Assembly: GCA_030747595.1 (NCBI GenBank)
Contig: JASLKK010000008.1
Location: 62,001-126,000, forward strand
DNA: 64,000 nt
From: Acidimicrobiales bacterium
GTDB lineage: Bacteria > Actinomycetota > Acidimicrobiia > Acidimicrobiales > MedAcidi-G1
Direction of reading: 5' to 3'
Of this stretch, positions 8,831 to 44,831 are shown one piece after another. The stretch's first letter is position 1. Each line of letters starts with the position of its first letter. The notes under the pieces are model-generated. The model had not been told where the DNA came from and made no database searches. It worked only from the letters and a program-made list of their open reading frames with translations. The translations under genes and the position numbers were made by a program.

Positions 8831-8923
8831 TCGACCTGTTCCCGCCCCATTCCCCTGTTCCGGACTGGTCATCTGCAGTCAGCTCCGGCGGCGGCCCAGA
8901 AGGTGATCGGTAGGCTCGACGCC

Positions 8924-9256
8924 ATGATGACGCCGGTTGACCCCCACCCCACGGAGGACCCCACCCCTGGGACCCCCGTTCGGGGCGATTGGGCCTCGTC
9001 GCTCGTCGACCGGTTCGTCGAGGTGGTCGACCAGGTTCGAAACGTCACCACACGGCCGATCATCACCCTCGCTCGTGCCCTGGTGTTTGGACTCGTCATG
9101 GTGTGTTGTGCCGTCGCTGCAACCGTCCTAGCCGGCATCGGCCTGTTCCGCCTCCTTGACGTCGTCCTTCCCGGTGAAAGCTGGTCAGCCCATCTCGTCC
9201 TAGGTGCCACCTGCTGCGCACTCGGCGGACTCCTTTGGTCCCGCCGAAGTCCCTGA
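8924..9256 (+). CDS. Small two-helix membrane protein
   Basis: About 110 residues: an acidic/Pro-rich N-terminus, an amphipathic stretch (SLVDRFVEVVDQVRNVTTRPII), then two hydrophobic helices (ALVFGLVMVCCAVAATVLAGI and LVLGATCCALGGLLW) ending in Arg-rich sequence. I cannot assign a family; small proteins of this shape occur in many actinobacteria. I prefer the ATG pair at 8924/8927 over a GTG at 8903. It lies 30 bases before trxB and may share its transcript. Confidence 0.65.
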   Translation: MMTPVDPHPTEDPTPGTPVRGDWASSLVDRFVEVVDQVRNVTTRPIITLARALVFGLVMVCCAVAATVLAGIGLFRLLDVVLPGESWSAHLVLGATCCALGGLLWSRRSP

Positions 9257-9286
9257 TCCCAAATCTCTCTCCCTTCTGGAGTACCC

Positions 9287-10285
9287 GTGTCTGAACCCGT
9301 ATCTGGACCCATATCTGGACAGGTCCCATCCCACCGCGAGGTCGTGATCATCGGATCCGGGCCCGCTGGCCTGACCGCGGCCATTTACGCAGCCAGAGCC
9401 GACCTTGCTCCCCTGGTCATCGAAGGCGAACCTTCGTCGAACAGCGACCAACCCGGTGGTCAGTTGATGCTCACTACCGAGGTCGAGAACTTTCCCGGCT
9501 TCCCAGAAGGGGTGATGGGCCCCCAACTCATGGGCGACATGCGGGCCCAAGCCGCCCGGTTCGGTGCCGAGATCGTGACGGCCAAGGTTTCCCGGGTCGA
9601 CTTTGCCGAACGGCCGTTCCGAATCTGGATCGGTGATCCCGACGCTGATGAACCCACTCACACCGCCGATGCCGTCATCGTCTCGACCGGAGCCCGGTCG
9701 GTCATGCTGGGGCTGGAGGCCGAGCAGCGGCTGATCGGACATGGGCTCTCCACGTGTGCCACCTGTGACGGCTTCTTCTTCCGTGATCAGGAAATCGCCG
9801 TTGTCGGTGGCGGGGACTCCGCGCTGGAAGAAGCCGGATTCCTCACCAAGTTCGCCTCCAAGGTGACGCTGGTCCATCGTCGCGACGAACTACGGGCGTC
9901 AAAGATCATGCAGCAGCGAGCCCTAGACAATCCCAAAATCGAGTTTTCCTGGAACTCCACGGTCGACGACGTCCTTGGAGAGTCCAAGGTCGAGGGCCTG
10001 GCCCTACGGGACACGGTGACCGACGAGAAGCGCGTGCTACCGGTGACCGGTGTGTTCATTGCCATTGGCCACCGCCCCAATACCGACCTGTTCAACGGGA
10101 TTCTGGATATGGACGAGGCGGGCTACCTGGTGACCGGGGCGGACCGTTCGACCACCAACGTGGATGGCGTGTTCGCCTGTGGTGACGTCCAGGACCACAC
10201 CTACCGGCAGGCCATCACCGCTGCAGCCTCGGGATGCATGGCCGCCATCGATGCCGAGCGTTGGCTGGAGAGCCGAACCGACTGA
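9287..10285 (+). CDS. trxB: Thioredoxin reductase
   Basis: An FAD/NADPH enzyme that reduces thioredoxin. Visible are the FAD-binding GSGPAGLTAAIYAAR motif (residues 23-37), the redox-active CATC pair (Cys157/Cys160) in STCATCDGF, the NADPH motif VVGGGDSALEEA, and the C-terminal FAD contact GVFACGDVQD. The 332-residue length is normal with a short extra N-terminal tail. The GTG at 9287 is the supported start. It is followed by trxA after 117 bases, the classic actinobacterial trxB-trxA pair next to cwlM and parB. Confidence 0.96.
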   Translation: MSEPVSGPISGQVPSHREVVIIGSGPAGLTAAIYAARADLAPLVIEGEPSSNSDQPGGQLMLTTEVENFPGFPEGVMGPQLMGDMRAQAARFGAEIVTAKVSRVDFAERPFRIWIGDPDADEPTHTADAVIVSTGARSVMLGLEAEQRLIGHGLSTCATCDGFFFRDQEIAVVGGGDSALEEAGFLTKFASKVTLVHRRDELRASKIMQQRALDNPKIEFSWNSTVDDVLGESKVEGLALRDTVTDEKRVLPVTGVFIAIGHRPNTDLFNGILDMDEAGYLVTGADRSTTNVDGVFACGDVQDHTYRQAITAAASGCMAAIDAERWLESRTD

Positions 10286-10402
10286 TCACCCCTCGACGGC
10301 CTACGCTCCTCGAGAAACCTCTCCTTGACCGTCATCGATCGACGACCTATGGCAGAGGCAACGACCAACTTGTCCTCCGGGACCCGAGGGAAGCGAGACC
10401 CC

Positions 10403-32182: not shown

Positions 32183-32218
32183 ACGGTCTTAGCGCTACTA
32201 GTCGGTGCAGCCGAACAT

Positions 32219-32260
32219 GATCTTCCTACCTGTCGACGGTGATCTTGTCGAGGAGTGGTA
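32219..32260. repeat. Direct repeat L, remnant of an oxygenase gene 3' end
   Basis: 42 bases matching 37545-37586 at 39 positions. On the minus strand it reads PLLDKITVDR and a stop, a diverged copy of the last codons of the Rieske oxygenase at 37552. It bounds the copper-oxidase/two-component block on the left. Confidence 0.85.
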
Positions 32261-32277
32261 TCCGTTGGGAGGTTCGG

Positions 32278-33684
32278 TCAGGCAGCTTCAACGATGACCG
32301 CGGTGACCATGCCAAACATCCCGTCATCGCGTTCCACGTGGTTGAGGATGTGACAGTGCCACACCCAGGCGCCGGGTTCGTCGGGACGGACTAGTACCGA
32401 GTAGCGCTCGCCAGGCGCCACATTGATGGTGTCGGCAAAGTATGGGTGATCGAGGGGGAATCCGTCCTTGGCGAATACCAACTGGGGGAACTGGTGCATG
32501 TGCATCGGATGGATCTGCAACCCCTCGTTGTAGTAGTCGACGACAATCCAGTCTCCTGCGGTGACGACGTAGGGCTGAGTCGCCGGGAAGGACTTGCCGT
32601 TTAGTGAGTAGCCGATGACCCCAGCGTCGTTAAGAACCATCGGGATGATCCTCGAGATCTCGAGGTCGGCTGGAATGGATACCCCCCCGATCGTCTTCCC
32701 GCGGGGAACTGGCGGTTCGCCAATGGTGAAAACACCGAACAACCCGTTGGGAATCGCCATGTGGCCCATGTGGTGGGCGTGGTACATGCCGGTTCGGGGT
32801 TCCTCGGCAGTGAACTCATATGTAAATGAGGTACCCGGCTGGATCAGGTCTTGGGTCAGGGGAGCCACGCCGTCCATGTCGTTGGGTGTGGAGATCCCGT
32901 GCCAGTGGACGTCAGTTCCCAATGGAAGCTGGTTGTCGATCACCACCCGAACTCGGTCGCCGACGTCGACCCGGATGACCGGGCCGGGGACTTGGCCGTT
33001 GTAGGTCCAGGCATCGACGATCTTCCCGGGCTCGACTTCCCACGGTGTGATGGCAGAAGTCAGATGGAATTCCTTGGTTCCGTCGGCGGTGGTGACTGCC
33101 TCCAAGATCTGGTTGCCGATGCCGGTGGTCTCGGCCGGGAAGTTTCGGATCGACTCCAACATGATTCGGTCCATCTCGGCCCAGTCGACGTCTCCTCCGT
33201 GGGCACCATTTCCATGGGAGGAGGCCGCCGTGGTCAGCTCCGGGTCATCGGCGTCAAGCACGGTCAGGGTGGCAGTCATTCCGGCCTCCGTGTGTCCGGA
33301 GATCTCGCACGTCATGGGATACGTACCTGGACGTAGCGTCCCCAAGTCCAAAACAGCTGAACGGTTGGTGCCCAATATGGGGGTAACTGGCCCGTTGTCG
33401 AATTGGAGGTTGTGTTCGGCTGAACCGAAGTTGGTCACGGATAGGACGACCGGACCCGCCGGCACGGTCAGGGTGCCGGTAATGGCAAACTCGGTTAGAG
33501 AAATCTCAGCTACAAAGACCCCGTCGCTGGCCACCGGGGTGGGGTGGAGTTCTCCGGAGACGGCTGCCGAGGTCGAAGAAGCCGGAGAGTCGTCGTCGGT
33601 AGCGCAACTGGCCACCAAGAGGGCAAAGGCCAGAGATGCGATGAGGATTCGTGTCATGAGGTGGCGGGTGTTTGATGTCGGCAC
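32278..33684 (-). CDS. Multicopper oxidase lipoprotein with an extra N-terminal cupredoxin domain
   Basis: An exported laccase-type oxidase. The N-terminus has a lipobox (LLVASC, Cys27). Residues 50-145 form a plastocyanin-like domain with a full type 1 copper set (SAEHN, then TCEISGHTEAGM). The oxidase part carries all four copper motifs: DVHWHG, YHAHHMGH, HPMHMHQF and WHCHILNH...GM. Electrons could thus pass from the extra domain to the trinuclear centre. The substrate is unknown (metals, phenols or nitrogen oxides are possible, but the HCH set argues against NirK). GTG 33684 is preferred because GGAGG lies 6 bases before it; ATG 33657 is the alternative. Confidence 0.88.
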   Translation of the reverse strand: MPTSNTRHLMTRILIASLAFALLVASCATDDDSPASSTSAAVSGELHPTPVASDGVFVAEISLTEFAITGTLTVPAGPVVLSVTNFGSAEHNLQFDNGPVTPILGTNRSAVLDLGTLRPGTYPMTCEISGHTEAGMTATLTVLDADDPELTTAASSHGNGAHGGDVDWAEMDRIMLESIRNFPAETTGIGNQILEAVTTADGTKEFHLTSAITPWEVEPGKIVDAWTYNGQVPGPVIRVDVGDRVRVVIDNQLPLGTDVHWHGISTPNDMDGVAPLTQDLIQPGTSFTYEFTAEEPRTGMYHAHHMGHMAIPNGLFGVFTIGEPPVPRGKTIGGVSIPADLEISRIIPMVLNDAGVIGYSLNGKSFPATQPYVVTAGDWIVVDYYNEGLQIHPMHMHQFPQLVFAKDGFPLDHPYFADTINVAPGERYSVLVRPDEPGAWVWHCHILNHVERDDGMFGMVTAVIVEAA

Positions 33685-33753
33685 CGAAGGTCCTCCATTG
33701 GTTGGTCCGCCGTGTTGACGGACGATGGGTCTGATGAATCAAGTGTCAGAGCG

Positions 33754-34260
33754 CTAGGGCCCGGTGGTCGTGGAGGAACGTCTTGAGTCAACGGTCCGTA
33801 GTGGAGACACCCAGGCTTTCCGCACTGCATGAGTGATGCTTCGTCGGGTTATTGGTGAATAGACGACGTGGGTACCGGCTAGAAGTTCGCTGTGGACCGC
33901 GACCTGCGGTTTGGGGACCTCGACGACTATCGGCGTGTTCGAATGTCGACACTTGAGCAGCCGGAGGATCTCCCGGTTGGTCGGGTTGGATAGAGGGAAC
34001 GAGAAGAAGATCACGTCGGCTTCGGCGGCTGCCGGACAACTAGCCGGTTTCATCAACGGGCATCGTGATCCCGCATTGTCGTCCGGGCCTCCACATCCGA
34101 CTACTTGAAAGCCTTCCCTTTCGAGCAGTCGGACAATGGATGACCGCACTGCTCCGTCGGACTCTTCGACGAGGACCCGGGGGTCAGTTGGCCACGGACT
34201 GAACCGCGGGGTACGGAATGATTTCCCGCGGCCATGTCGACGATGCTTCTGCTTGGCCAT
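33754..34260 (-). CDS. Degenerate receiver-domain protein A
   Basis: A basic 25-residue tail precedes a receiver-like fold: PRVLVEESDGAVRSSIVRLLEREGFQVVGC, ADVIFFSFPL, TPIVVEVPKP, GTHVVYSPITRRSITHAVRKAW. The phospho-acceptor Asp position is Ser87 and the conserved Lys position is Ser135, so canonical phosphorylation is not expected. It has no output domain. It is a paralogue of the protein at 37076 (same FSF, NPxVVxE and SPxSR-type blocks). ATG 34260 is chosen although the ribosome binding site is weak. An 11-base motif (34266-34276) lies directly upstream. Confidence 0.7.
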   Translation of the reverse strand: MAKQKHRRHGRGKSFRTPRFSPWPTDPRVLVEESDGAVRSSIVRLLEREGFQVVGCGGPDDNAGSRCPLMKPASCPAAAEADVIFFSFPLSNPTNREILRLLKCRHSNTPIVVEVPKPQVAVHSELLAGTHVVYSPITRRSITHAVRKAWVSPLRTVDSRRSSTTTGP

Positions 34261-34265
34261 GCTTT

Positions 34266-34276
34266 GACGGTACGGA
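34266..34276 (-). promoter_or_regulatory. Paired operator-like motif, copy 1
   Basis: On the minus strand this reads TCCGTACCGTC, 5 bases before the start of the pseudo-receiver A gene. A perfect second copy, oriented the same way relative to its own gene, is at 34379-34389. Confidence 0.5.
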
Positions 34277-34345
34277 TAGCCCAAGAAGCTTTTCAGGGCC
34301 AGAGGTCCCGATTCATGGGGCTTCTTCGAGTGGTTTCCGCACAAC

Positions 34346-34359
34346 AGGACCTTTGACCC
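34346..34359 (+). promoter_or_regulatory. Weak DosR-box-like site
   Basis: AGGACCTTTGACCC matches the 14-base core of the DosR consensus (GGGACTWWAGTCCC) at 10 positions and lies 62-76 bases before the Rieske protein start. Listed only because the local regulator is DevR-like. Confidence 0.25.
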
Positions 34360-34378
34360 TGAGCGCCTTCCACGATCG

Positions 34379-34389
34379 TCCGTACCGTC
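34379..34389 (+). promoter_or_regulatory. Paired operator-like motif, copy 2
   Basis: TCCGTACCGTC on the plus strand, 32 bases before the GTG of the Rieske protein gene; partner of 34266-34276. Confidence 0.5.
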
Positions 34390-34421
34390 TGATTTACCAC
34401 CCGTGCGCCGATTGGAAGACC

Positions 34422-34973
34422 GTGCCGCTCACCAGGAGAGATTTCGTGATTGCTGGAGGCGCCATTGGTGCCACCCTTGGAGGTGGTGTCGTCGCCCCGG
34501 TAGCCCTCACCTGGGAACGGGATCGGTTCGGCAACTTCACCGCTGTGACCGCCCGGTTCGCCGAAGTGGTCGTAGCAGACCTTTCTCAACTGGTTGTTGG
34601 AGAGCCAGTTACCTTCGAATATCCGGCGGAGGGGCAGCGCAACGTACTGGTGCGAATCGGTCGGCCGGTCGAACACGGAGTCGGCCCTGACCTCGACCTC
34701 GTTGGCTTCTCCTCGATCTGTCCTCACACTGGCTGCCCATTTGACGAGTACCGGGTTGACATGGCCACCCTGGACTTCTGCCCATGCCAGTTCATTACCT
34801 TCGATGTCGCAGCTGATGGGATTCCGTCGTTCAACCAAGCCACCCAGCACCTATCGCGTATCCTCCTGCGGCTCGAGGGCGACGATGTTGTGGCATACGG
34901 GGTACGACGACCCATCTATGGAGACACCGACCCACTGCACGGCGTCGGTATGAAGGTCCTGGAGTCGACATGA
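34422..34973 (+). CDS. Tat-exported Rieske-type protein with a His-to-Gln ligand change
   Basis: A 183-residue protein with a twin-arginine signal (LTRRDFVIAGGAIGA, residues 3-17). The Rieske fold shows the first ligand loop CPHTGCPF (Cys100, His102) and the second loop CPCQFITFD (Cys120, Cys122, Gln123), where Gln replaces the expected His ligand. It resembles small subunits of arsenite-oxidase-type and cytochrome-bc-type complexes, but no large subunit is nearby. GTG 34422 is preceded by TTGGAAGA and places the twin Arg correctly. It overlaps the next gene by 4 bases. Confidence 0.8.
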   Translation: MPLTRRDFVIAGGAIGATLGGGVVAPVALTWERDRFGNFTAVTARFAEVVVADLSQLVVGEPVTFEYPAEGQRNVLVRIGRPVEHGVGPDLDLVGFSSICPHTGCPFDEYRVDMATLDFCPCQFITFDVAADGIPSFNQATQHLSRILLRLEGDDVVAYGVRRPIYGDTDPLHGVGMKVLEST

Positions 34974-35266
34974 ACACCGCACACCACCTCCTGTCGGGCC
35001 ACCGAACCGAAACACGTCTCGTCGATGCTGACGGTGAACGGCTCCTCCGGACCGTCGTGGTTGCCACCCTCGGCTCCGCCGTCTTCATCACCGGGTTCTT
35101 TGCTTTGGTGACCTGGCTCGTTGCCCCCGAAGCTGGGGTGGTGAGCGCCTTGGCTCTTGGTGGCCTTTCAGGTATCTGGGTCTCGGTCCTTGCTGGCGGG
35201 GTAATTGGTAACGGGATCCACGAAGCCCGACATGAACGGGCCGAACGTGATAAGTCGAAAGCGTGA
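34970..35266 (+). CDS. Small membrane protein with two helices
   Basis: 98 residues: a soluble N-terminus, two hydrophobic helices (VVVATLGSAVFITGFFALVTWLV and VVSALALGGLSGIWVSVLAGGVI) and a charged His/Arg/Lys tail. I recognise no family. It overlaps the Rieske gene before it (ATGA) and the response regulator gene after it by 4 bases each, so the three form one operon. A membrane anchor or redox partner for the exported Rieske protein is a plausible inference. Confidence 0.75.
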   Translation: MNTAHHLLSGHRTETRLVDADGERLLRTVVVATLGSAVFITGFFALVTWLVAPEAGVVSALALGGLSGIWVSVLAGGVIGNGIHEARHERAERDKSKA

Positions 35267-35907
35267 GCCTCCGCATCTTCCTCGTTGACGACCACGACGT
35301 CGTCCGCCGGGGCCTGACTGCGTTGATCGACGCCGAGGATGACCTCGAGGTGGTCGGTACGTCCAGTTCGGCCGCCGGCACGCTCGACGCCATCGCTGCG
35401 ACGAGACCGGACGTATCCGTTCTCGACGTACGCCTTGGAGACGGCAACGGCGTCGAGGTATGCCGCGACATCCGCTCCGCACACCCCAAGGTTGCCTGCC
35501 TGATCCTCACGTCGTTTGAGGACGACCAAGCCCTCGTCGAGGCCAGCCTTGCCGGAGCTGCCGGTTACGTCCTCAAACGAGTCCAGGGAGATGAGCTTCT
35601 CACCGCGATCCGACTGGTCGGAAAGGGAAGGCGTCTTCTTGCCCCCGGCACCACCCGACTGGCCTTGCGGCGGCTCCGCGAGAGCGGCGAGGCAGCCGTC
35701 GAGGAACTCTCACCGCAAGAACGGCGCATCTTCGACTTGATTGGCGACGGACTATCCAACCGCGAGATCGCGGATCGCATGTACCTCGCAGAAAAGACAG
35801 TCAAGAACTACGTCACCAACTTGCTACGGAAGTTGGGGATGTCGCGCCGGACCGAAGCCGCGGCATTCGCTGCCCGGTTGGACGAGCGCCGACGGTCAAC
35901 AAGTTGA
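35263..35907 (+). CDS. NarL/DevR-family response regulator
   Basis: An intact receiver (Asp9, Asp10, phospho-acceptor Asp55, Thr83, Lys105) followed by a LuxR-type helix-turn-helix (LSPQERRIFDLIGDGLSNREIADRMYLAEKTVKNYVTNLLRKLGMSRR, split over residues 149-195). The sequence closely resembles DevR/DosR of mycobacteria. The GTG start overlaps the upstream membrane gene. Its likely partner is the convergent kinase 24 bases away. A DosR-box-like palindrome at 36996 is a candidate target. Confidence 0.92.
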   Translation: MSLRIFLVDDHDVVRRGLTALIDAEDDLEVVGTSSSAAGTLDAIAATRPDVSVLDVRLGDGNGVEVCRDIRSAHPKVACLILTSFEDDQALVEASLAGAAGYVLKRVQGDELLTAIRLVGKGRRLLAPGTTRLALRRLRESGEAAVEELSPQERRIFDLIGDGLSNREIADRMYLAEKTVKNYVTNLLRKLGMSRRTEAAAFAARLDERRRSTS

Positions 35908-35931
35908 CCGGCGGCACCAATAAAGAGCGGA

Positions 35932-36951
35932 TCAAGATCCGTCGGACCGCATTGGCACCGACCACTCGATAGTTGTTCCCCCAATCGGGTTCCGGCAGGC
36001 GCTAAAGGTCCCCGCGTGGCGAGACGCTCGATCCTCAAGGTTCGCGAGGCCACTGCGTCGGGGTGGCTCGTCGGCGATCCCCGTCCCATCGTCAACCACT
36101 TCGATGGTGAGCCGGTCGGAGACATCGATTCGCAGTTCGACCGTTGTCGCCTCGGCATGACGGGCCACGTTGGTCAAGCTCTCCCGCACCACGGCCAAGG
36201 CCTCTTCGACCAGTTCGTCAGGGACCCCGGTGTCGAGCGGTCCGCGAAAGTGGCACCGTGGCTCGATTCCCAGGGTGCGCACTACATCGGCGACTAGGGC
36301 CTCAACTTGTGAGCGAAGACCTGATCTTGCATGGACCGGCGACGACAGGTCGAAGATGACCGTTCGGATAGTGCGGATCGTCCCGTCAAGGGCAGCCACC
36401 ACCTCGGCGAGCCGCTCGGGCTGCGAGTAGGTGGCTTGCAAAGCCTGGAGCCCGATTCCGGCAGCAAAGAGCTCTTGGATGACCGTGTCATGGAGCTCGC
36501 GGGCGATGCGTTCGTGGTCCTCGGCCAAATCACGGGACCGTTCGGCGTGCTGGAGACGCTCCTCAGCCTCCACCCAAGCCGACATATCCCGCACGGCGGC
36601 CAACGTGCGCTCACCACCATCCAATGGCGCCAGACTCACGTGTATTGGAAAGGCTGTGTCGTCGGCCCGTCGGCCTTGAAGGCGGAGGCCGGTGCCCATC
36701 GGGCGAGCTAGTGGATCATTCTCGAACGAGGTTCGGTGGTGGGCGTGAACCTTACGGAGGTCCTCGGGGATTAGGTCCTCGACCGAGCGCCCGACAAGGG
36801 TCTTGGCGGGGTGCCCAAACAACAGATAGGCCGCCTGGTTGGCGGCCAGGATCCGTCCACCGCGTTCGACGACGACGAGAGCGTCCGGAGAGGAGTCCCA
36901 GACTTCCTCGACCGAGACTCCAAATGTCGGGTCCCACGTCCTTCGCTCCAT
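35932..36951 (-). CDS. PAS-containing HisKA_3 sensor kinase (DevS-like)
   Basis: 339 residues, no membrane segment. An N-terminal PAS domain (about residues 14-125, LAANQAAYLLFGHPAKTLVGR) leads into a HisKA_3 dimerisation helix with the phospho-acceptor His154 in RIARELHDTVIQELFAAGIGLQ. The C-terminal HATPase domain has NVARHAEA, VVDDGTGIAD and GLANLEDRA. The HisKA_3 part is like mycobacterial DevS, but the GAF haem domains are missing, so the signal is unknown. ATG 36951 is chosen. It faces the response regulator tail to tail. Confidence 0.9.
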   Translation of the reverse strand: MERRTWDPTFGVSVEEVWDSSPDALVVVERGGRILAANQAAYLLFGHPAKTLVGRSVEDLIPEDLRKVHAHHRTSFENDPLARPMGTGLRLQGRRADDTAFPIHVSLAPLDGGERTLAAVRDMSAWVEAEERLQHAERSRDLAEDHERIARELHDTVIQELFAAGIGLQALQATYSQPERLAEVVAALDGTIRTIRTVIFDLSSPVHARSGLRSQVEALVADVVRTLGIEPRCHFRGPLDTGVPDELVEEALAVVRESLTNVARHAEATTVELRIDVSDRLTIEVVDDGTGIADEPPRRSGLANLEDRASRHAGTFSACRNPIGGTTIEWSVPMRSDGS

Positions 36952-36995
36952 GGCTCGAGCGTAGGACGGGTAGATCGCATTCGCCCCGACGCTGG

Positions 36996-37015
36996 ACCGG
37001 GACCAAGGTCCCGAA
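36996..37015. promoter_or_regulatory. DosR-box-like palindrome
   Basis: ACCGGGACCAAGGTCCCGAA matches the mycobacterial DosR consensus TTSGGGACTWWAGTCCCSAA at 16 of 20 positions and is centred on the perfect dyad GGGACC-AA-GGTCCC. It lies between the divergent kinase and pseudo-receiver B genes. Confidence 0.6.
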
Positions 37016-37075
37016 TCTCGAGGAGGTGACAATGGTCCCTGTTGGCGGTGACTGTCTCGGTCCGAGGATTACCCC

Positions 37076-37537
37076 ATGGACCCCACCACCGATATCCCTA
37101 TTGAGGATTGCGGCGATGGCAACTCGTTTGCCAAGGTTGCCGACAAACCCCGTGCCGTCGTTATTGGAGTTGATGATGCCCTACGGGACACCCTCATGGA
37201 CCATTTGGCTGCGTCGGGCTTTGAGGTTGTGGATTATGAGTGCCAGGACGATGACGTCTTGGCTGACGGCGATGAGCGGATTCGGCCTAGCGACGTCCTG
37301 GTTTTTTCATTTCGCGAGGTCACAGAAGCTCGACGAAACGCCTGTCGTTCAGTCCGCCGTTCCCACCCGAAGAACCCGGTCGTGATCGAACTCATGAATC
37401 CGAAGACGTTCCGTTACGCCGACTTGCTCCTTGGAGCACGAGTAGTCAGCGCTCCGGTATCGCGTGAATCGCTTCAAAAGGCGGCTCTAGATGCCTGGTC
37501 GACACCCAATCCCATATACGAGATGCTCCGGAGGTGA
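37076..37537 (+). CDS. Degenerate receiver-domain protein B
   Basis: 153 residues: a short acidic N-terminus, then a receiver-like fold (RAVVIGVDDALRDTLMDHLAASGFEVVDY, SDVLVFSFRE, NPVVIELMNP, GARVVSAPVSRESLQKAALDAW). An acidic residue pair remains at 33-34, but the phospho-acceptor position is Ser78 and the Lys position is Ala126. It is paralogous to protein A at 33754. It has no output domain and may bind a partner such as the kinase or regulator next door. The DosR-like palindrome is 60 bases upstream. Confidence 0.72.
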   Translation: MDPTTDIPIEDCGDGNSFAKVADKPRAVVIGVDDALRDTLMDHLAASGFEVVDYECQDDDVLADGDERIRPSDVLVFSFREVTEARRNACRSVRRSHPKNPVVIELMNPKTFRYADLLLGARVVSAPVSRESLQKAALDAWSTPNPIYEMLRR

Positions 37538-37544
37538 CGCTCAG

Positions 37545-37586
37545 GATCTTCTTACCCGTCGTCGGTGATCTTGTCGAGGAGTGGTA
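37545..37586. repeat. Direct repeat R, 3' end of the oxygenase gene
   Basis: Partner of 32219-32260 (39 of 42 identical, same orientation). It covers the last codons and stop of the Rieske oxygenase at 37552 and bounds the copper-oxidase/two-component block on the right. Confidence 0.85.
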
Positions 37587-38763
37587 GAAGCTCCTGGCCC
37601 AGCATGCTGCGATAGGTGTTGTGGTAGTGGTGCAGGGCAGGCTCGTTTCGTCCGAACACGATCTGGTCGAGTGCACCGGTGTCAGCTGACCTCTGTTGGC
37701 TGGCGCTCATGGCGTAGTCCTCGTCGCGGATGATCTCGCCGAAAGAGCGAGCAATTTGGGTCGCAAAGGCTTCGAAGTCAGGTACCTCGATGCCGAGGAC
37801 GTTCGACTCGACGGCTTCCGGGCGGATGTAAAAGTCGACCTTGCTGACATGGTGGCCCGGGTCACCCGGCGTCGGAATGGCACGGACGAGGAATACACCG
37901 ACTTCGAAGGGCATGAGGATGATGTTTGGGAATAGCCAGTAGACGGGGAGGCCGGCGACGGTGACGTCCCACTCCTCCTCTGGAAGCTGTCGTACTTGAT
38001 CGATGGCTCGCTTGCATAGGACCATTCGGTGGAGGTGCCCGTCCTCGTCGTAGGTCTGGACGTTGCCGTGGAAGTTGAGTGCAAGGGTGTTCGAGTGGAG
38101 TGCGTTGAAGTGATACGTCTCGCCGAAGGTGTCCATTGCGAGCTTCCAGTTGCACTTGATGTCGTACTCGTCAGAGGTGAGGAGTTTGAGTTCGTCGAAT
38201 CTCCAGGTCGGGAACTCGTCGTTGAACCACTCGCCGAGTAGCCAGTCGAGGTCGACTTCACCGTCGGGTTGGGGATGCACAAAGAGCAACCCGTGTCGCT
38301 CCTCGGCCGGGAGTTCGCGCAATCCGAGGCATTCCATTTCGACTTGGCCGAAGTGGGCGGCCTTAGGCATCCCTACGAGGGTCCCGGCGGTGTCGTAACT
38401 CCAGGCATGGAACGGGCAGGTGAAGCGACGTTTAGTGCCGTGGCTATCGGTTTCGAGGATGGTGCCCCGGTGTCGGCACGAGTTTACGAAGGCCCTGAAC
38501 CCACCATCCTCGCCCCGGGTGGCGAGGATGGGTGTCCCGTAGTCGTTGTTGGTGAGGAACGACCCTGCCTCGGGAAGGTCACCGGACAGGCCGATGAGTT
38601 GCGGCATCCCTCGGAACCACTCGTTCCACTCACGGTTGGCCTGGGTGGGGTCGGTGTAGGTGATGGTCGGGTTTTGACGCAGGCCGCCCGCATCGACGTT
38701 GGTGTCGCCGTCGAGATGGGCGCACATTTCCTTGATTATCCGGACCTGCTCGTCGTGTCGCAT
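37552..38763 (-). CDS. Rieske non-haem iron ring-hydroxylating oxygenase, alpha subunit
   Basis: 403 residues. The Rieske motif is complete (CRHRG and CPFHAWSYD, about residues 95-120). The catalytic domain contains the iron-ligand block ETYHFNALH and a conserved Asn/Asp helix before it. The family includes aromatic ring dioxygenases and tertiary-amine demethylases; the substrate is unknown. ATG 38763 (MRHDEQVRIIKEM) is the first family-like start; the open frame further upstream crosses a tRNA-like sequence and is not coding. It is unlike the first oxygenase (30413) outside the motifs. Confidence 0.87.
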   Translation of the reverse strand: MRHDEQVRIIKEMCAHLDGDTNVDAGGLRQNPTITYTDPTQANREWNEWFRGMPQLIGLSGDLPEAGSFLTNNDYGTPILATRGEDGGFRAFVNSCRHRGTILETDSHGTKRRFTCPFHAWSYDTAGTLVGMPKAAHFGQVEMECLGLRELPAEERHGLLFVHPQPDGEVDLDWLLGEWFNDEFPTWRFDELKLLTSDEYDIKCNWKLAMDTFGETYHFNALHSNTLALNFHGNVQTYDEDGHLHRMVLCKRAIDQVRQLPEEEWDVTVAGLPVYWLFPNIILMPFEVGVFLVRAIPTPGDPGHHVSKVDFYIRPEAVESNVLGIEVPDFEAFATQIARSFGEIIRDEDYAMSASQQRSADTGALDQIVFGRNEPALHHYHNTYRSMLGQELLPLLDKITDDG

Positions 38764-38834
38764 GACGTGACCTGACCAGAAACTTAGAGGGTTAGCCAAA
38801 TCCACTGGATGTGCTGGCTTGTGAAGGCGTGGGC

Positions 38835-38886
38835 GTGCCCGGAGGGACTCGAACCCTCCCCACCGCGGAGAGCATGATCCGGGCAC
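38835..38886 (-). pseudogene. tRNA-like acceptor/T-arm minihelix (tRNA remnant)
   Basis: On the minus strand GTGCCCG (38886-38880) pairs fully with CGGGCAC (38841-38835), directly stacked on a T-arm GAGGG-TTCGAGT-CCCTC. Only 21 bases replace the D and anticodon arms, so it cannot be a normal tRNA. It may be a decayed tRNA or an old integration scar. Confidence 0.6.
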
Positions 38887-38898
38887 CAGAGCGCTTCT

Positions 38899-38931
38899 CT
38901 GCAAGTCTGTTGGGTCGGGGCAAACTTGCAG
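38899..38931. repeat. 8-bp inverted repeat before the lipoprotein gene
   Basis: CTGCAAGT (38899-38906) and ACTTGCAG (38924-38931), 17 bases apart, in the 234-base gap between divergent genes. It could be a regulator site. Confidence 0.35.
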
Positions 38932-38997
38932 TTCAGAGCTGATTTTTTGGGCCGTCACCGCTCAATCCGCCGACGGACCTCGTGCTAAACAGAACCC

Positions 38998-40428
38998 GTG
39001 GATTCCCTACGACTCGTCTGGCTGCTAACGGTGGCCCTCCTCGCCGGATGCGCCTCCAACGGCGAGGTGGCTGCACCCACCACCGCGACGACCGCGACCG
39101 CCACGTCCACCGCGACCGCCACGTCCACCGCGACCGCCACGTCCACCGTGACGACCGCGGCGCCGGTCACGTCCACTGCGGAGATCACCGTGACCACTGC
39201 GGAGACCACCGTGACCACCGCGGAGACCACCGTGACCACCGCAGCGCCCACCACCATCGACATCAGCGCCGTCCAGACTGCCGAGCAGCTTCAGGCGTAT
39301 GTGGCCGAGGCAGCCGGGTTCTCGCAGGTCGAAGCCGCCTGGCTCCTGCCAGACGACCTGGACCCCCAGGCGGGCGGCGCCCCTGGTTACACCCGCTATG
39401 TCTTTCGTGAGACTTCTGCCGGCGTGGTGCCCACGCTGGTGGAGGGGCCGGTCGGCGACCAGGTCCGCTGCCAGGATCCTGACCTGCCCTGTTCGTACCT
39501 TGAACTCAAGGAGTTACACGAGAGCGGTGGGAGTATTCCCGAGGAACTGGAGCTGCACCCCGACGAACTGGGCGCGTTGGTCGCCGAGTTGGACGAACTG
39601 AATGCCTTCATGGAGAAGCACAGGGACGTCGACGACGCCTGCCGCGCCGGCCATGTTTCCGACCGGATCCAGACCCCGAACATGGGATCGCACTTCTACA
39701 ACCTCTCCAGCATGCGACGGGGCTTCGACCCGGGCAGCCCACAGATCCTGCTCTACACGCTGGCTGACGACTCCCTGCCGAATGGGGCGCTGGGCCAGTG
39801 CTCGGAGGGCAGATGGATAGGCGAGCCCATGCAACTGGTGGGCACGGCGTTCGTCATTTCGCCAGAGATCATCGGCTTCGACCACCCCGAAGGCTTTACC
39901 GGCGGATTAGACAACTGGCACTCGCACTTCAATCTCTGCCGCGGCAACCGTAAGGGCGTTGACCAGTTCGTGAGCCGGGAGGAGTGTGCTGGCCTGGGTG
40001 GGCAGTTCCACGACGCCATCGGCTGGATGCTCCATGCGTGGGTGGATCCCGCCCACGACAACCAGTTGGGTGTCTTCTCGATGTGGAACTCCTCGATCAC
40101 CCCGTTCCTGGGAGACGCCGACATTCGCTCGGCTTCGATGGTGCGCGGTAGCGACTTCCCAGAGGACGCCCGCCAGTCGCTCATTACCAACTTCGCCTTC
40201 GAGTCCGCTATCAAGGTGACCGCCGGCGAGGCCGTCTACTTCAACAACAGCGACTCGGTGCCCCACACGGTCAGTGCCGGCACCCCTGACGACCCCGTCC
40301 TCGACTCCTTCGACTCGGGCCTTCTGGACCCCGGCGACAACTGGCAGTTGAACACTTCGACGCCGGGCACCTATAGCTACTTCTGCGCCCTACACCCCGA
40401 CATGACTGCCACCATCATCGTCAACTGA
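38998..40428 (+). CDS. Cupredoxin-domain lipoprotein with a Thr/Ala repeat stalk
   Basis: 476 residues. A lipobox (LLAGC, Cys18) is followed by a low-complexity Thr/Ala/Val stalk (about residues 25-85) encoded by 18- and 21-base tandem repeats, suited to span the cell wall. A central domain of about 250 residues, with WHSHFNLCRG and HDAIGWMLHAWVDP, is not one I recognise. The C-terminal 75 residues are plastocyanin-like with type 1 copper ligands (VPHTV, then YFCALHPDM). The start is GTG 38998. It is probably a surface copper/electron-transfer protein, possibly a partner of the multicopper oxidase. Confidence 0.75.
   Translation: MDSLRLVWLLTVALLAGCASNGEVAAPTTATTATATSTATATSTATATSTVTTAAPVTSTAEITVTTAETTVTTAETTVTTAAPTTIDISAVQTAEQLQAYVAEAAGFSQVEAAWLLPDDLDPQAGGAPGYTRYVFRETSAGVVPTLVEGPVGDQVRCQDPDLPCSYLELKELHESGGSIPEELELHPDELGALVAELDELNAFMEKHRDVDDACRAGHVSDRIQTPNMGSHFYNLSSMRRGFDPGSPQILLYTLADDSLPNGALGQCSEGRWIGEPMQLVGTAFVISPEIIGFDHPEGFTGGLDNWHSHFNLCRGNRKGVDQFVSREECAGLGGQFHDAIGWMLHAWVDPAHDNQLGVFSMWNSSITPFLGDADIRSASMVRGSDFPEDARQSLITNFAFESAIKVTAGEAVYFNNSDSVPHTVSAGTPDDPVLDSFDSGLLDPGDNWQLNTSTPGTYSYFCALHPDMTATIIVN
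39090..39245 (+). repeat. Coding tandem repeats in the lipoprotein stalk
   Basis: About three 18-base units (GCGACCGCCACGTCCACC) are followed by about three 21-base units built on GAGACCACCGTGACCACC. Both keep the frame, so unit number can change stalk length without breaking the gene. Confidence 0.85.
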
Positions 40429-40472
40429 GGTTGGCCAGGTTTTCTTCACGGGTGAAGCCGTGATCCCCGGTG

Positions 40473-41357
40473 TTAGGTCGGGCGGTGTCGAAGAGCGGGC
40501 ATCCAGCGTTCACCAGCGGTGGCGTTGATCCGAGCAACGAACGCTTCGTGATGGGGCTCGACAGCCTGACAAAACGCTTGCGTGGCGGCCTCGCCTACCT
40601 CTCGCCACGCTGGTTCAGTCAACCTGTTGGTGCGGTCTTCTAGCTCGAGGCGAAACTGACGGGCTGTCTGGTTCAGGGCTCCATCAGTTGCTAAGCCTTT
40701 CGCTTCCAGACGGCGCCACCCGCGTGCCACGGCCTCATCGTCAGCACCTCGACTTCGGGCGATCCATTCTTCGCCGCCGTACTCGTTGGTGTCGACCATG
40801 GCCGAATGGAGAAGTCCGACTTCGACGTCATCGAGTTCTTCAGACGCGCACAGGGCCCAGTGGTTATCGCCGCGGAGCTCGCGAAGGCAGTTAGCCGCCA
40901 ACCAGGCTGACAGTGCGGGTTGAGTGTTATCAGGTCGTGGCTGGTCTCGACAGGCCGCGAAAAGGGGACGGGCTCCGTGGTGCACGGCGTCGGCACCGCG
41001 CCAAAGGTCTTTGGCCAGTGGGGCGAGGGCATCACTCAACCCCGGAGCGATGGATTCCAGGCCGGGTTCGACGGCGGCATCGCGCACTGCACAGATGGCC
41101 TCAGCGTCAGTGACGCTGCGCCAGAGGCCGAGGATGGTTTCCACGATCCGTGGATTGATCGAGTATGTGGCCGCCGCAACGGCGGCCGAAGGAATGTCCC
41201 CTAGGGGTGCGAGTCGCCATGCCTGGATCCAGCCATTGCCGTTCGGGACGCCCAGGGCCTCGTAGGCGCTAATCGCAACCGGATCCCACATGAGCCAGCC
41301 GACGAGGTCGTGACCTGCGCGGCCGGTCCTCGCTGTCAATCCGGTCCAGTCTGTCAT
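40473..41357 (-). CDS. SCO6745-family protein
   Basis: 294 residues resembling the actinobacterial SCO6745 family: an N-terminal ARTGRAGHDLVGWLMWD region, AAVAAATYSINPRIVETILGLW, LREHRGD-type helix (here LRELRGDNHWALC, about residues 160-172), and a C-terminal winged-helix-like part (RLEAKGLATDGALNQTARQFRLELEDRTNRL). The biochemical role is unknown; the C-terminus looks like a MarR-type fold. It is convergent with the lipoprotein gene across 44 bases that hold a small hairpin (40444-40457). Confidence 0.75.
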   Translation of the reverse strand: MTDWTGLTARTGRAGHDLVGWLMWDPVAISAYEALGVPNGNGWIQAWRLAPLGDIPSAAVAAATYSINPRIVETILGLWRSVTDAEAICAVRDAAVEPGLESIAPGLSDALAPLAKDLWRGADAVHHGARPLFAACRDQPRPDNTQPALSAWLAANCLRELRGDNHWALCASEELDDVEVGLLHSAMVDTNEYGGEEWIARSRGADDEAVARGWRRLEAKGLATDGALNQTARQFRLELEDRTNRLTEPAWREVGEAATQAFCQAVEPHHEAFVARINATAGERWMPALRHRPT

Positions 41358-41407
41358 CGGCTTTGCTCCGTCTGCCTGCTACTCGGTGATGCCGAGCAGA
41401 GGGATTC

Positions 41408-41471
41408 CCGACGAGGCCTATGTGGGTGGCGCGCTCGGAGGGACTCGAACCCCCAACCTTCTGATCCGTAG
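41408..41471 (-). pseudogene. tRNA-Arg(ACG) 3'-half duplicate (attachment-site scar)
   Basis: 41423-41471 is identical over 49 bases to the anticodon-to-3'-end part of the intact tRNA-Arg at 44758, and a further 12-base flank matches beyond a short mismatch. The copy stops in the anticodon loop, so it cannot be functional. This is the usual trace left by tRNA-targeted integration. Confidence 0.9.
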
Positions 41472-41581
41472 GTAGGGCCACGGGGATCTCCAGTCGGGTG
41501 AGTTGTGCTCTGAACAGCCCATTCTACGACGGCCCTGCGTCTGGCTGTCTCCCCGTATGCCACCCCAGCCGGATGGCGTCC

Positions 41582-42706
41582 TTATCGGAACCGTCGCTGG
41601 GTGGCCGACCGTCGGTTGGTGAGTTGTTCGATCCGATGTTGGGGATCCCCGTTGACGCGAATTTCGGCGAATTGAACGACCTCCGCCACCGGTGTCGGTT
41701 TCGTTTCCGCCCAGACGTACCGATAGGCCACGGAACCACGCTGGAGCCCGGTGGTGTCGAGCCAGTTCGGCCAGCCTGGATCCTGGTGGGCGACGACGAT
41801 CCGGCACATGCCGTCGGACGTTTCGACTTGCTCCTTGTTGAGGCTTGTCTGGCGCTGGCCGAACATTGGTGACTCGTACCAAAGGAGGTCGTACAGGGCG
41901 AACGACCAGTATTTCGCGTCAGGTGTTTCGAGGTCGATAACGAGTGCCTCGTCGGGGCCAAGTTCGAACTGGATGCCGCCGTAAGCAATATTGTCGGCAC
42001 TTCCGGGTACGGAGTGTGGAGCGGTCGCCTCGTTAAGCGGAGAACCGAGACGGAGGCTTTGGATCCAGTCCGGCCAGAACGTGAATGCTTTCTCCGTCCA
42101 GGTGATGGCCCGGTCGAGTTGGCTGAAAAATGCTGCCGGGGTTGGTGGCGTTGGAAATGTGTCGATCCGGTCGAGTCGTTCGATCACAAACCAGCCGGGC
42201 TCCACGTTCCAGTCAAGGAAGTACTCCCGTATGGAAACGTGGTCTGCCTCGCCGTCGATCCGTAGCCAGTCCCCGTCATGGGGCTCGGCGCTGATGATCA
42301 GTTCAAAAGAGCCGTCGGCCGCGATTGAGAGTTCCTCCGAGGTGATCTCTCCATGCGATCCATACTGTCCGAGGTGCATTTCTCCCTCGGGGAGCTGGAC
42401 CAGAAACGGGCGCCCACTAGGAACCTTCCCATCAAGCCGGTAGGTGCCCGATGGTTCAATCTTTGCCCGCCAGTACGTGTTGTCGGGACTCGGAGCCCCC
42501 CACTGGCCGGTGTCCGAGTTGTGACGATAGATCGATGGCACTTCCCGGTCGGAGAACTCGATTGATTCCTGCAGTGCACCCGCCAAGAGCCCAAGCAGGT
42601 GCCGCTGGCCGTTGACGACATCCTGCTCGGTATCCACGCCCGGCATGTCGACAATGCCGTCGCCTAGGTCGCGAAGACGATCACAAAACCCATGCCAGTC
42701 GGTCAT
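41582..42706 (-). CDS. DUF1214-domain protein
   Basis: 374 residues without signal peptide. The C-terminal DUF1214 domain is recognisable: AKYWSFALYDLLWYESPMF, TSLNKEQVE, CRIVVAHQDPGWPNWLDT, then AYRYVWAE. The N-terminal part holds YWRAKIEPSGTYRLDG and FELIISAEPHDGDWL. Proteins of this family lie beside CoA-ester and steroid-type catabolic genes in actinobacteria, but the reaction is unknown. ATG 42706 follows a G-run. It diverges from the crotonase gene by 152 bases, inside the tRNA-Arg-bounded island. Confidence 0.78.
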   Translation of the reverse strand: MTDWHGFCDRLRDLGDGIVDMPGVDTEQDVVNGQRHLLGLLAGALQESIEFSDREVPSIYRHNSDTGQWGAPSPDNTYWRAKIEPSGTYRLDGKVPSGRPFLVQLPEGEMHLGQYGSHGEITSEELSIAADGSFELIISAEPHDGDWLRIDGEADHVSIREYFLDWNVEPGWFVIERLDRIDTFPTPPTPAAFFSQLDRAITWTEKAFTFWPDWIQSLRLGSPLNEATAPHSVPGSADNIAYGGIQFELGPDEALVIDLETPDAKYWSFALYDLLWYESPMFGQRQTSLNKEQVETSDGMCRIVVAHQDPGWPNWLDTTGLQRGSVAYRYVWAETKPTPVAEVVQFAEIRVNGDPQHRIEQLTNRRSATQRRFR

Positions 42707-42858
42707 CTCTAACCCCCCAGGTTCAACCTTCGGAGTAAGAGGGTAGGTGGGTGGGACGATGCCTCGCCGATGAGGCCTCCGGGAGTCGGGTCTAGGGTCA
42801 TCGGAACTATTGAGAGTGCCGACGGAGACGGCCCAGAGTGACAACGGGAGGCGAGTTC

Positions 42859-43638
42859 GTGACTGACCGGGTTCAGCTAGAGATCGATGGATCGATCGCC
42901 ACGATCACGAACAACAACGTCCACAAGCACAACGCCTTCGACGACGAGATGGACGCTCGGCTGTTCGAGATCCTCGGCGAACTCGCGGGCCGTCCTGAGG
43001 TACGGGCCGTCATCTGGCGGGGCGAGGGCCGGTCGTGGTCTTCAGGCCGGGATGTTTCGGCCATAGGAACGAACCGGACCGAACTCGCCCACCACGAGTT
43101 GATGGTGCGAGGACATCGGGGTATCCAGCAACTGTGGGACATCGACGCTCCGGTCATCGTCGCCATCCAGGGGTGGGCGATCGGGGGGATGTTCCAACGG
43201 GCCCTGCTATGTGACATTCGGATCGCCGCCGCCGACGCCCGTTTCATGCTTCCGGAGTTGGGCCACGGCGTGATCCCCGACACCGGAGGCATGGGAGTCC
43301 TATATGAGATGTGCGGCCATGGCCTGGTCAGCGACATGGTCCTAACTGGCCGACAGCTCTCAGCCGAGGAGGCACTCCACCACGGGATTGTGTCCCGGGT
43401 CGTGTCACCGGAAACCCTGGAGGCCACGGCACGGGAGATGGCCGAGCAGATAGTCGCCGCGCCGGCTGTTGGCGTGAAACTCGCCCGACGGGTCATAGCC
43501 CACCTAGCAAGACCCCAGCAACGAACCTCCATGGACGACGAGTTGATCTACCAGACGTTCCTTAACCGCAGCGACGATTTCGCGGAGTTCCGTGCGGCCC
43601 GCGACGAGAACCGGGAACCCCGGTACCGGGGGTGCTGA
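42859..43638 (+). CDS. Enoyl-CoA hydratase/isomerase family protein
   Basis: A crotonase-fold enzyme of 259 residues. The oxyanion-hole loops are visible (SSGRDVSAIG and IGGMFQRALLCDIRIAA), as is the acidic active-site stretch ARFMLPELGHGVIPDTGG. Specificity (hydratase, isomerase or other) cannot be fixed. The start GTG 42859 has GGGAGG 7 bases upstream. It overlaps the SDR gene by 7 bases, so the two are likely one CoA-ester pathway. Confidence 0.88.
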   Translation: MTDRVQLEIDGSIATITNNNVHKHNAFDDEMDARLFEILGELAGRPEVRAVIWRGEGRSWSSGRDVSAIGTNRTELAHHELMVRGHRGIQQLWDIDAPVIVAIQGWAIGGMFQRALLCDIRIAAADARFMLPELGHGVIPDTGGMGVLYEMCGHGLVSDMVLTGRQLSAEEALHHGIVSRVVSPETLEATAREMAEQIVAAPAVGVKLARRVIAHLARPQQRTSMDDELIYQTFLNRSDDFAEFRAARDENREPRYRGC

Positions 43639-44543
43639 TTGTGACGGACCTCTCCGACCCAGGGTTGCCGGCGCCCCCACCATTGGGCGCCAGCGCCCTG
43701 CCCGCTGGGACCTTCGACGGCGAGGCGGTGTTCATCACCGGGGCTGGTACAGGCCTCGGCAAAGCAATCGCCGTTGAGTTCGCTCGGCTGGGCGCCTCGA
43801 TCGTGGTCGCTAGCCGGAAGCTCGAACACCTTGATGCAGGTGCGGCGGCCATCCAGGAGGTCGGTGCTGACGTGATCACCGCCCAGTGCGACATCCGTGA
43901 CGCCGAGGAGGTCGCCGCGGCGTTCGATACCGCCACCGATGCCTTCGGGCTACCCGGCGTCCTCGTCAACAACGCGGCGGCTAACTTCCCGTCGCCCGCC
44001 GAGGAGTTGTCGCCCAATGCTTGGCGCACCGTGGTCGACATCACCCTCAACGGAACATTCCTGTGCGCCCGAGAGTTCGCCCGGCGACACCTCGCGGCCG
44101 GCAGCCCGGCATCGATCATCAACGTGGGCGCCTCGTACGCCTGGACCGGCGGTCCGGGCTTCGCTCACTCGGCAGCCGCCAAGGCGGGCGTCAAGAATCT
44201 CGTCGAGACCCTTGCTGTGGAGTGGGGGCCGGCCGGCATCCGGGTCAACGGTCTCGTACCCGGCCTGTTCCCCCATGAGGACATGACCAACGACATCCGG
44301 GGCAACCTTGACCGGACGCACGACAAGGATCACTGTCAGCCCGCCCTCCGGGTGGGGGAGCGTCAGGAACTGGGCTGGGCGGCCACTTTCCTGGCCTCGC
44401 CGTACGCCCGGTTCATCTCTGGACACACTCTGGTCGTCGACGGTGCGAACTGGCAGCGGCGTACTCTGACTAACCCTCCGGTCGTACCGATCCGTGACCA
44501 GTTGGGGCTCGGGCCTTTCGAGAACACCGACCAGGTCGGTTAG
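43632..44543 (+). CDS. SDR oxidoreductase, 2,4-dienoyl-CoA-reductase-like
   Basis: A short-chain dehydrogenase with the cofactor motif ITGAGTGLGKAIA (about residues 33-45) and NNAAANF. In place of YxxxK it has HSAAAKAGVKNLVETLAVEWG, the pattern of peroxisomal/mitochondrial-type 2,4-dienoyl-CoA reductases, followed by IRVNGLVPG. This suggests reduction of unsaturated CoA esters, matching the crotonase beside it. Starts at GTG 43632 or 43641. The 303-residue length includes a variable N-terminal 28 residues. Confidence 0.85.
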   Translation: MLIVTDLSDPGLPAPPPLGASALPAGTFDGEAVFITGAGTGLGKAIAVEFARLGASIVVASRKLEHLDAGAAAIQEVGADVITAQCDIRDAEEVAAAFDTATDAFGLPGVLVNNAAANFPSPAEELSPNAWRTVVDITLNGTFLCAREFARRHLAAGSPASIINVGASYAWTGGPGFAHSAAAKAGVKNLVETLAVEWGPAGIRVNGLVPGLFPHEDMTNDIRGNLDRTHDKDHCQPALRVGERQELGWAATFLASPYARFISGHTLVVDGANWQRRTLTNPPVVPIRDQLGLGPFENTDQVG

Positions 44544-44677
44544 AACGGCAGGCCAGACTTGACGCCGCCCAGGTCTTTCAGGGCATGTTTCCGATCATCG
44601 ATGCTGGCACGGCGCAGGTCCGACCGGTCGGCGACTTCGCGGCCATGCTCAAGGTCCGGGCTGAGGCGAACGCCTAA
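44540..44677 (+). pseudogene. C-terminal fragment of an unidentified protein
   Basis: The frame LERQARLDAAQVFQGMFPII... to KVRAEANA and a stop has strong coding character (G or C in most third positions) but no start and no upstream body. It begins at the end of the SDR gene in another frame. It looks like the tail of a gene deleted at the island edge. I cannot name the parent protein. Confidence 0.5.
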
Positions 44678-44757
44678 GGAAACCTCCTCCGACGAGTTCC
44701 CCCGCCCCCTACGACAACAGACCTCGCCGGGATTACCGACGAGGCCTGTCTGGGTGG

Positions 44758-44831
44758 CGCGCTCGGAGGGACTCGAACCCCCAACCTTCTGATCCGTAGT
44801 CAGATGCTCTATCCAATTGAGCTACGAGCGC
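44758..44831 (-). tRNA. argV: tRNA-Arg(ACG)
   Basis: A complete cloverleaf on the minus strand: acceptor GCGCTCG/CGAGCGC, D-arm AGCTCAATTGGATAGAGC, anticodon loop CTACGGA (ACG, complement of 44795-44797), T-arm GGTTCGAGTCC. CCA is encoded (44757-44755). Its 3' half is duplicated at 41423. Confidence 0.97.

Follow-up and report, generated by a model that had tools for sequence, protein, structure and literature searches.

An integrase-less tRNA-Arg cassette in a marine Acidimicrobiales genome and the element family that shares its end

The locus and its empty site

A 3.3-kb island in the genome of an Acidimicrobiales bacterium (MedAcidi-G1; assembly GCA_030747595.1) carries a DUF1214 gene, a crotonase gene and an SDR gene between an intact tRNA-Arg(ACG) and a copy of the 3' half of that tRNA, and is presented here as a probable integrase-less cassette that was inserted by an integrase acting in trans. 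It lies in a stretch of 64,000 nt (contig JASLKK010000008.1, positions 62,001–126,000, forward strand) which, at its full length, is called the window; G000 is the genome of the window, other G-numbers denote relatives, C-numbers contigs and L-numbers loci. A preliminary description had placed these three genes between the intact tRNA at one end and the orphan 3' half at the other, bounded by 49 identical bases plus a flank, and all of this holds under ARAGORN, repeat comparison and a scan with shuffled controls: the 49 bp at 41423–41471 and 44751–44799 are exact, the repeat extends to 71 bp at 96% identity, and no second tRNA-Arg is found by ARAGORN in the window (Table 1). The duplication starts in the anticodon loop, at tRNA position 33, and the orphan half scores 45 of a possible 45, whereas shuffled queries reach no more than 17 over 18 kb, so the match is not due to chance. 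A third 3' remnant of tRNA-Arg, older and degenerate, was recovered by the sensitive scan with a score of 21.5 (shuffled maximum 17), and the window must therefore hold two tandem insertions.

The sister genome G002, contiguous over 134 kb and 96.0% identical to the window at the nucleotide level over 8.26 kb of core DNA (95.3% on the pheA side), provides the empty site. Here tRNA-Arg stands directly before the Rieske gene, itself 97% identical to that of the window, and 38857–44754 is missing. As the flank of this tRNA-Arg also aligns with the flank of the degenerate remnant, the 5.9 kb of 38857–44754 was added in the window as two tandem units: an older one, with HTH_67 and cupredoxin genes and ending in the degenerate remnant, and the 3.3-kb island. 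The preliminary description had anticipated an empty site in which tRNA-Arg is followed by the SCO6745-family gene; none was found, because that gene belongs to the older insertion and the empty site is instead tRNA-Arg followed by Rieske. No relative was found in which the site is empty for the 3.3-kb island alone, G002 being empty for the two-island composite.

Most family members have the same fixed neighbours at this locus, with pheA and a pair of tRNA-Ser genes to one side and tRNA-Ile(GAT) to the other. Copies of the 3' half, most of them starting at tRNA position 33–34, occur downstream of the same tRNA-Arg in 11 of 40 relatives, with up to three in G005; across the genus, zero to three half copies stand between tRNA-Arg and the next conserved genes, the arrangement that defines an additive flexible genomic island. 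Still other genes lie next to tRNA-Arg in G014 and G007, as is to be expected of a hotspot. In both the window and G005 the best-preserved half is the copy nearest the tRNA, which fits the newest unit being tRNA-proximal. These copies, the empty site in G002 and the integrase genes beside tRNA-Arg in G050, G021 and G029 (see below) support the earlier proposal of tRNA-targeted integration. A spacing of 283 bp between two tRNA pieces in G010 was rejected as an element size, the spacing being a run of N.

Table 1. Positions of the features discussed, numbered from the first letter of the window
Feature	Position	Strand	Remarks
Intact tRNA-Arg(ACG), integration target	44755–44831	-	ARAGORN; 3' half duplicated
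attL-like site	44729–44799	-	tRNA 3' half (44755–44799) plus 26 bp flank; 71-bp repeat, 96%; flank common to G005 and G015
DUF3303 gene, C-terminal stub	44560–44677	+	Cut by left cargo joint; at tRNA-side island edge
Captured cargo block	41557–44557	.	95.4% over 3,001 bp to G007:C42
SDR gene	43632–44543	+	In cargo block
Crotonase gene	42838–43638	+	In cargo block
DUF1214 gene	41582–about 42706	-	In cargo block
Right ARM, conserved element end	41472–41568	-	ARM-specific bases 41472–41556; 80–91% identical in relatives; model R1
9-bp microhomology GGGGTGGCA	41558–41566	-	At cargo/ARM joint; common to G007 chromosome and ARM of relatives
attR-like site	41401–41471	-	Orphan tRNA-Arg 3' half (41427–41471) plus flank
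HTH_67 / SCO6745-family gene	40473–41357	-	Cargo of older insertion; missing from G002 empty site
Cupredoxin-domain gene	38998–40428	+	Cargo of older insertion
Third, degenerate tRNA-Arg 3' remnant	38832–38864	-	Original attB side; score 21.5, shuffled maximum 17
Rieske oxygenase open reading frame	37552–38958	-	Directly after tRNA-Arg in G002 empty site; real start probably below 38832

A conserved inner end with unrelated cargo

Just inside the orphan half lies a sequence of about 95 bp, here called ARM, which is found again in the corresponding position in two units of G005 and in G013, G023 and G016. The elements that bear it carry unrelated cargo: the window has the SDR, crotonase and DUF1214 block, G005 a hexapeptide transferase together with DUF3303, G013 a zinc-ribbon protein plus a large protein of secreted type, G023 TetR along with a matrixin-like protein, and G016 a single membrane protein. 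A profile (R1), built from six ARMs without tRNA sequence and applied to 48 family genomes and 397 genomes of the order, returned seven matches beyond its training set, in G062 (5e-26), G050 (3.5e-11 and 2.9e-10), G347 (1e-13 and 1.2e-7), G188 (1.8e-11) and on contig G023:C65 (1e-14). Five of the seven lie beside a tRNA-Arg 3' half (degenerate in one case), another lies 62 bp after tRNA-Arg and the last runs into an assembly gap. When 84,980 species genomes were searched with an exact ARM pattern, seven stretches were recovered, all in metagenome-assembled genomes (MAGs) of Acidimicrobiia type; matches of ARM in phage genomes cover the tRNA part only. Two other identities for ARM were considered and rejected. 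As an RNA gene it has neither a Rfam match at E up to 1 nor a supported fold, and as an attC site, of the kind found in integrons and in clusters of attC sites lacking integrases (CALINs), it yields an RNAalifold structure that is weak and unsupported, with a positive covariation term, and again no Rfam match.

Several arrangements around ARM were observed in passing. At the left ends of the integrase-less loci L041, L045 and L246 the arm repeats described below are followed without a break by right-ARM sequence (33, 57 and about 93 bp), which is not so in G021 and G050; this run-on may mark deletions between arm repeats, comparable to the formation of solo long terminal repeats. In L246 (G347:C77, 8559–8730), a tRNA-Arg element from another family, the left ARM reproduces the right ARM almost completely and ends at the edge of the core, where TTAATAACC rather than GGATCAG comes after CTTAC; recombination of the core with a site outside any tRNA might leave such a pattern. 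Pentapeptide-repeat proteins are recurrent cargo beside ARM in three genomes of two families: L098 (G050:C8, 1–800), L247 (G188, 500–2560) and L246 (G347, 8720–10313). In G050 the ARM copies share their contig with pheA and stand apart from tRNA-Arg.

Integrases at the same tRNA and a shared register of arm repeats

No Phage_integrase or Resolvase match lies in the window island, which thus lacks the integrase of its own that marks a tRNA-targeted integrative element, and no integrase was found in the fully assembled ARM elements examined, the whole-genome PF00589 matches of G000, G005, G013 and G016 being on other contigs. Likewise, the tyrosine recombinase gene next to the tRNA that characterises tycheposons is absent from the window and from the assembled ARM elements. 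The statement in the preliminary description that no integrase remains is therefore right for the island, although its implication of decay is too narrow: it is not the window copy alone but the whole ARM-ended family that is without one. Nor did the suggestion that a matching integrase might lie elsewhere lead to one within G000. Its whole genome holds a single Phage_integrase protein, Xer-like but scoring far below the XerC/XerD equivalog cut-offs, with no tRNA beside it, and no resolvase was found; a helper from the same genome was rejected on these grounds, and no co-resident integrase element was found in G000.

Integrase genes do occur at the same tRNA in relatives. In G050, tRNA-Arg is directly followed by a pair of CAGCCA motifs, an excisionase gene (TIGR01764) and a tyrosine integrase gene, and G021 has an integrase fragment, 53% identical to that of G050, in the same place. 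The motif stands at +73 bp after the tRNA end in G001, G013, G016, G021 and G050; in G013, G021 and G050 it is present again at +85. This identical register links the integrase-less elements to the integrase-bearing ones. CAGCCA pairs also occur inside the right ARMs of G013, G023, G062 and G050, and are otherwise rare, with eight in 666 kb of the loci examined, those at element ends included (0.0024 per 200 bp). From what is generally known of tyrosine integrases, the repeats are putative arm-binding sites. No conjugation genes were seen in the integrase-bearing relatives at tRNA-Arg, whose contigs end early.

Beyond these relatives, contig G029:C32 (62420–83197), from another family of the order, carries tRNA-Arg and a 3'-half copy that are each followed by an integrase gene (63117 and 66900), and a further tRNA-Arg half at 83154, an arrangement of autonomous elements in tandem at this same tRNA. 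In family f1 (loci L133–L186), tyrosine integrases are commonly found beside tRNA-Pro, -Gly, -Val, -Asn, -Met and -Lys. One weak relative of the G050 integrase is present among viral contigs. The phage record MT836389.1, from human faeces, has a tRNA-Arg 3' half 463 bp from an integrase gene whose product is about 30% identical to that of G050, and is possibly a distant relative that uses the same target.

Origin of the cargo

The captured block is nearly identical to a block on G007:C42 with a KAS III gene on one side, a nitrilase gene on the other and neither ARM nor tRNA half (Table 1), although the core DNA of the two genomes is only 73–80% identical. The nine bases GGGGTGGCA, within which the right joint falls, occur in the chromosome of G007 and also in the ARM of G001 and other relatives. 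At the left joint, which cuts a DUF3303 gene, no homology is evident; intact copies of that gene are present elsewhere in G000 and in the tRNA-Arg array of G005, and the DUF3303 DNA at 44560–44686 is 94% identical to the intact G000 copy (G000:C9:824–1117) and 93% to the tRNA-Arg elements of G005 and G001. The SDR has strong relatives in 111 of the 397 genomes of the order, the window copy being the sole one in G000 at that threshold, and the block consequently looks chromosomal in origin; the idea that SDR and crotonase are foreign to the lineage was dropped for the same reason. Transfer is thus likely to have run from chromosome to cassette and not the reverse. A second apparent capture is provided by a G013 cargo gene that is 93.9% identical to a copy near trpD on G015:C20, which again has neither ARM nor half, against 73.7% for core DNA. 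The preliminary description had held that relatives carrying the same genes with no repeat would speak against integration. Taken literally, G007 is such a relative; its block, however, lies at a different locus and looks like the chromosomal source, so the reading as integration stands.

Interpretation and alternatives

On balance, the island is best explained, and we think probably so, as an integrase-less cassette bounded by att sites, inserted by an integrase in trans and carrying captured cargo. The cassette would have entered the 3' end of tRNA-Arg(ACG) by site-specific recombination of the tyrosine-integrase type, when the site already held an older cassette. It would belong to an element family defined by a conserved right end, ARM plus tRNA half, and, where the left end is kept, by a CAGCCA pair at +73 and +85 bp from the tRNA end. 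The integrase acting in trans would most likely come from autonomous elements that occupy this tRNA-Arg as well, and the cargo would be an ordinary piece of chromosome joined to an ARM-bearing element by illegitimate recombination. The cassettes may also have travelled from cell to cell, by whatever route. The window copy no longer has its left arm and is by now probably fixed and immobile.

Several observations weigh against this account. The contigs of G050 and G021 both end inside the integrase gene, so that no complete two-ended autonomous element was seen, and the right ARMs of G050 lie on another contig in a rearranged context. An integrase of the G050/G021 type was not detected in G000, nor in genus g1 at the tRNA-Arg site, and the ARM-core pattern has no match in viral contigs. 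All genomes are draft MAGs. In the window itself the left arm is missing, with no CAGCCA pair at the left end (hence the judgement that this copy is probably fixed), and the left flank differs from the left end of other elements and is common to G005 and G015, which makes the window element a mosaic. The simplest history of this end would have two steps: a later event at the tRNA, either insertion or recombination, and then a deletion that reached into the DUF3303 gene.

The absence of an integrase could also reflect plain decay, in which autonomous integrative elements later lost their integrase and persist, with no present helper, as remnants similar to cis-mobilizable elements (see below). 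The usual scenario is that decayed elements accumulate at tRNA genes (PMC5704250), the window island bears deletion scars in its DUF3303 stub and missing left arm, and in G001, G016 and G347 the left arm continues into right-ARM sequence, as deletion between arm repeats would predict. Yet G013 and G016 keep both arms and the half around unrelated cargo with no integrase, and repeated loss of the integrase alone is less economical; moreover, a cargo identity of 94–95% against 73–80% for the core across species argues for recent movement of DNA, and we regard decay as unlikely. Homologous recombination after DNA uptake, with crossovers in tRNA, ARM and flank and the site-specific step confined to the distant past, would find substrate in the roughly 140 bp of ARM plus half and in the flank that the window has in common with G005 and G015 (71-bp repeat, first 51 bp after the tRNA), and the left end of the window island does look recombined. 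Such crossovers would have no need of the constant distance from CAGCCA to the core in elements with and without an integrase, and a gain precise to one nucleotide that restores the tRNA, in several genera, is the signature of att recombination, making this route highly improbable. That unrelated DNA was joined at the repeat during assembly or binning has to be considered where every genome is a MAG and several relatives have contig ends or runs of N just after tRNA-Arg. The contig is 130 kb long, however, the repeat measures only 71 bp, and the same arrangement with a conserved ARM recurs in independent MAGs of several genera; an artefact is scarcely credible.

A broader extension of the trans-acting account is offered only tentatively, and we consider it doubtful: tRNA-Arg(ACG) in marine Acidimicrobiia may serve as an integron-like platform, with the tRNA as the fixed site, ARM plus half as the portable cassette site, a phage-type tyrosine integrase, present in only some cells, that loads and shuffles one- to three-gene cassettes in trans, and new cassettes arising by fusion of chromosome and ARM at microhomology.

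Relation to known systems

Additive flexible genomic islands, in which cassettes end in a direct repeat of a tRNA, have been described in marine Actinobacteria ('Ca. Actinomarinales', PMC7771536) and in Methylophilaceae (fGI-2, PMC10872708). They resemble the window family in their tRNA direct repeats and in the transfer of cassettes between genera and, for the former study, in coming from marine Actinobacteria as well. They differ in that the available text of the two accounts mentions neither a conserved end sequence internal to the repeat nor relatives that encode an integrase, and gives no chromosomal source whose joints are resolved. Cis-mobilizable elements (CIMEs) form by accretion of integrase-less, att-bounded elements, as in the islands related to ICESt1 (PMC5704250). 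Like them, the window island keeps attL and attR without recombination or transfer genes, enclosing only SDR, crotonase, DUF1214 and the DUF3303 stub (the left arm being missing), and shares with them tandem accretion at one site (PMC5704250). CIMEs are, however, by definition decayed integrative and conjugative or integrative and mobilizable elements, whereas in the window family no integrative and conjugative relative was seen, the cargo is unrelated and at least one cargo block is chromosomal.

The ssrA islands of Dehalococcoides are similarly tandem at one RNA gene, bounded by 3' repeats, marked by a motif beside each repeat and present with and without an integration module (PMC3146451). 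They differ in using a serine recombinase and a tmRNA target, with module-bearing vcr islands of about 12 kb (PMC3146451), where the present family has a tyrosine integrase, tRNA-Arg and cassettes of 1.4–3.8 kb. Tycheposons and similar marine satellites share the tRNA boundary, the cargo, the marine setting and a suspected dependence on helpers, but those described carry a tyrosine recombinase and measure 4–200 kb (PMC10872708, PMC11389934), and the window element has no recombinase. CALINs too are cassette arrays with one recombination site each that need an integrase in trans (PMC11389934), though the ARM of the window has no attC fold, the site is a tRNA half with arm repeats, and the related enzyme is a phage-type integrase. 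Cassettes with tRNA repeats, CIME accretion, and a motif beside the repeat in module-bearing and module-less islands are therefore already known. In the part of the literature covered, no description was found of a conserved ARM across integrase-less cassettes of unrelated cargo that is tied in register to an integrase family at the same tRNA, nor of a cargo source with joints at base level.

Small tRNA-repeat cassettes have been reported in streamlined marine bacteria, with both their mover and the source of their cargo left mostly open. Here the sequence of the element end is accompanied by a candidate integrase family whose arm repeats match, by an empty site and by a cargo source with base-level joints, which makes the question testable, and the near-identical chromosomal copy of the cargo in another species hints at how cassettes are loaded and moved. 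Two questions follow: whether ARM cassettes are excised by an integrase of the G050/G021 type, and whether ordinary chromosomal genes become mobile through fusion to ARM.

Other features of the window

A protein 95% identical to the cupredoxin-domain product of the older insertion is encoded beside a tRNA-Arg half in G005 and G010. Comparison with G002 also reveals another insertion, at 32261–37541, with a multicopper oxidase, a response regulator and a PAS histidine kinase and no integrase. It is flanked by a direct repeat of 45 bp, 91% identical (32216–32260 and 37542–37586), which corresponds to the 3' end of the Rieske gene and is present as one copy in G002.

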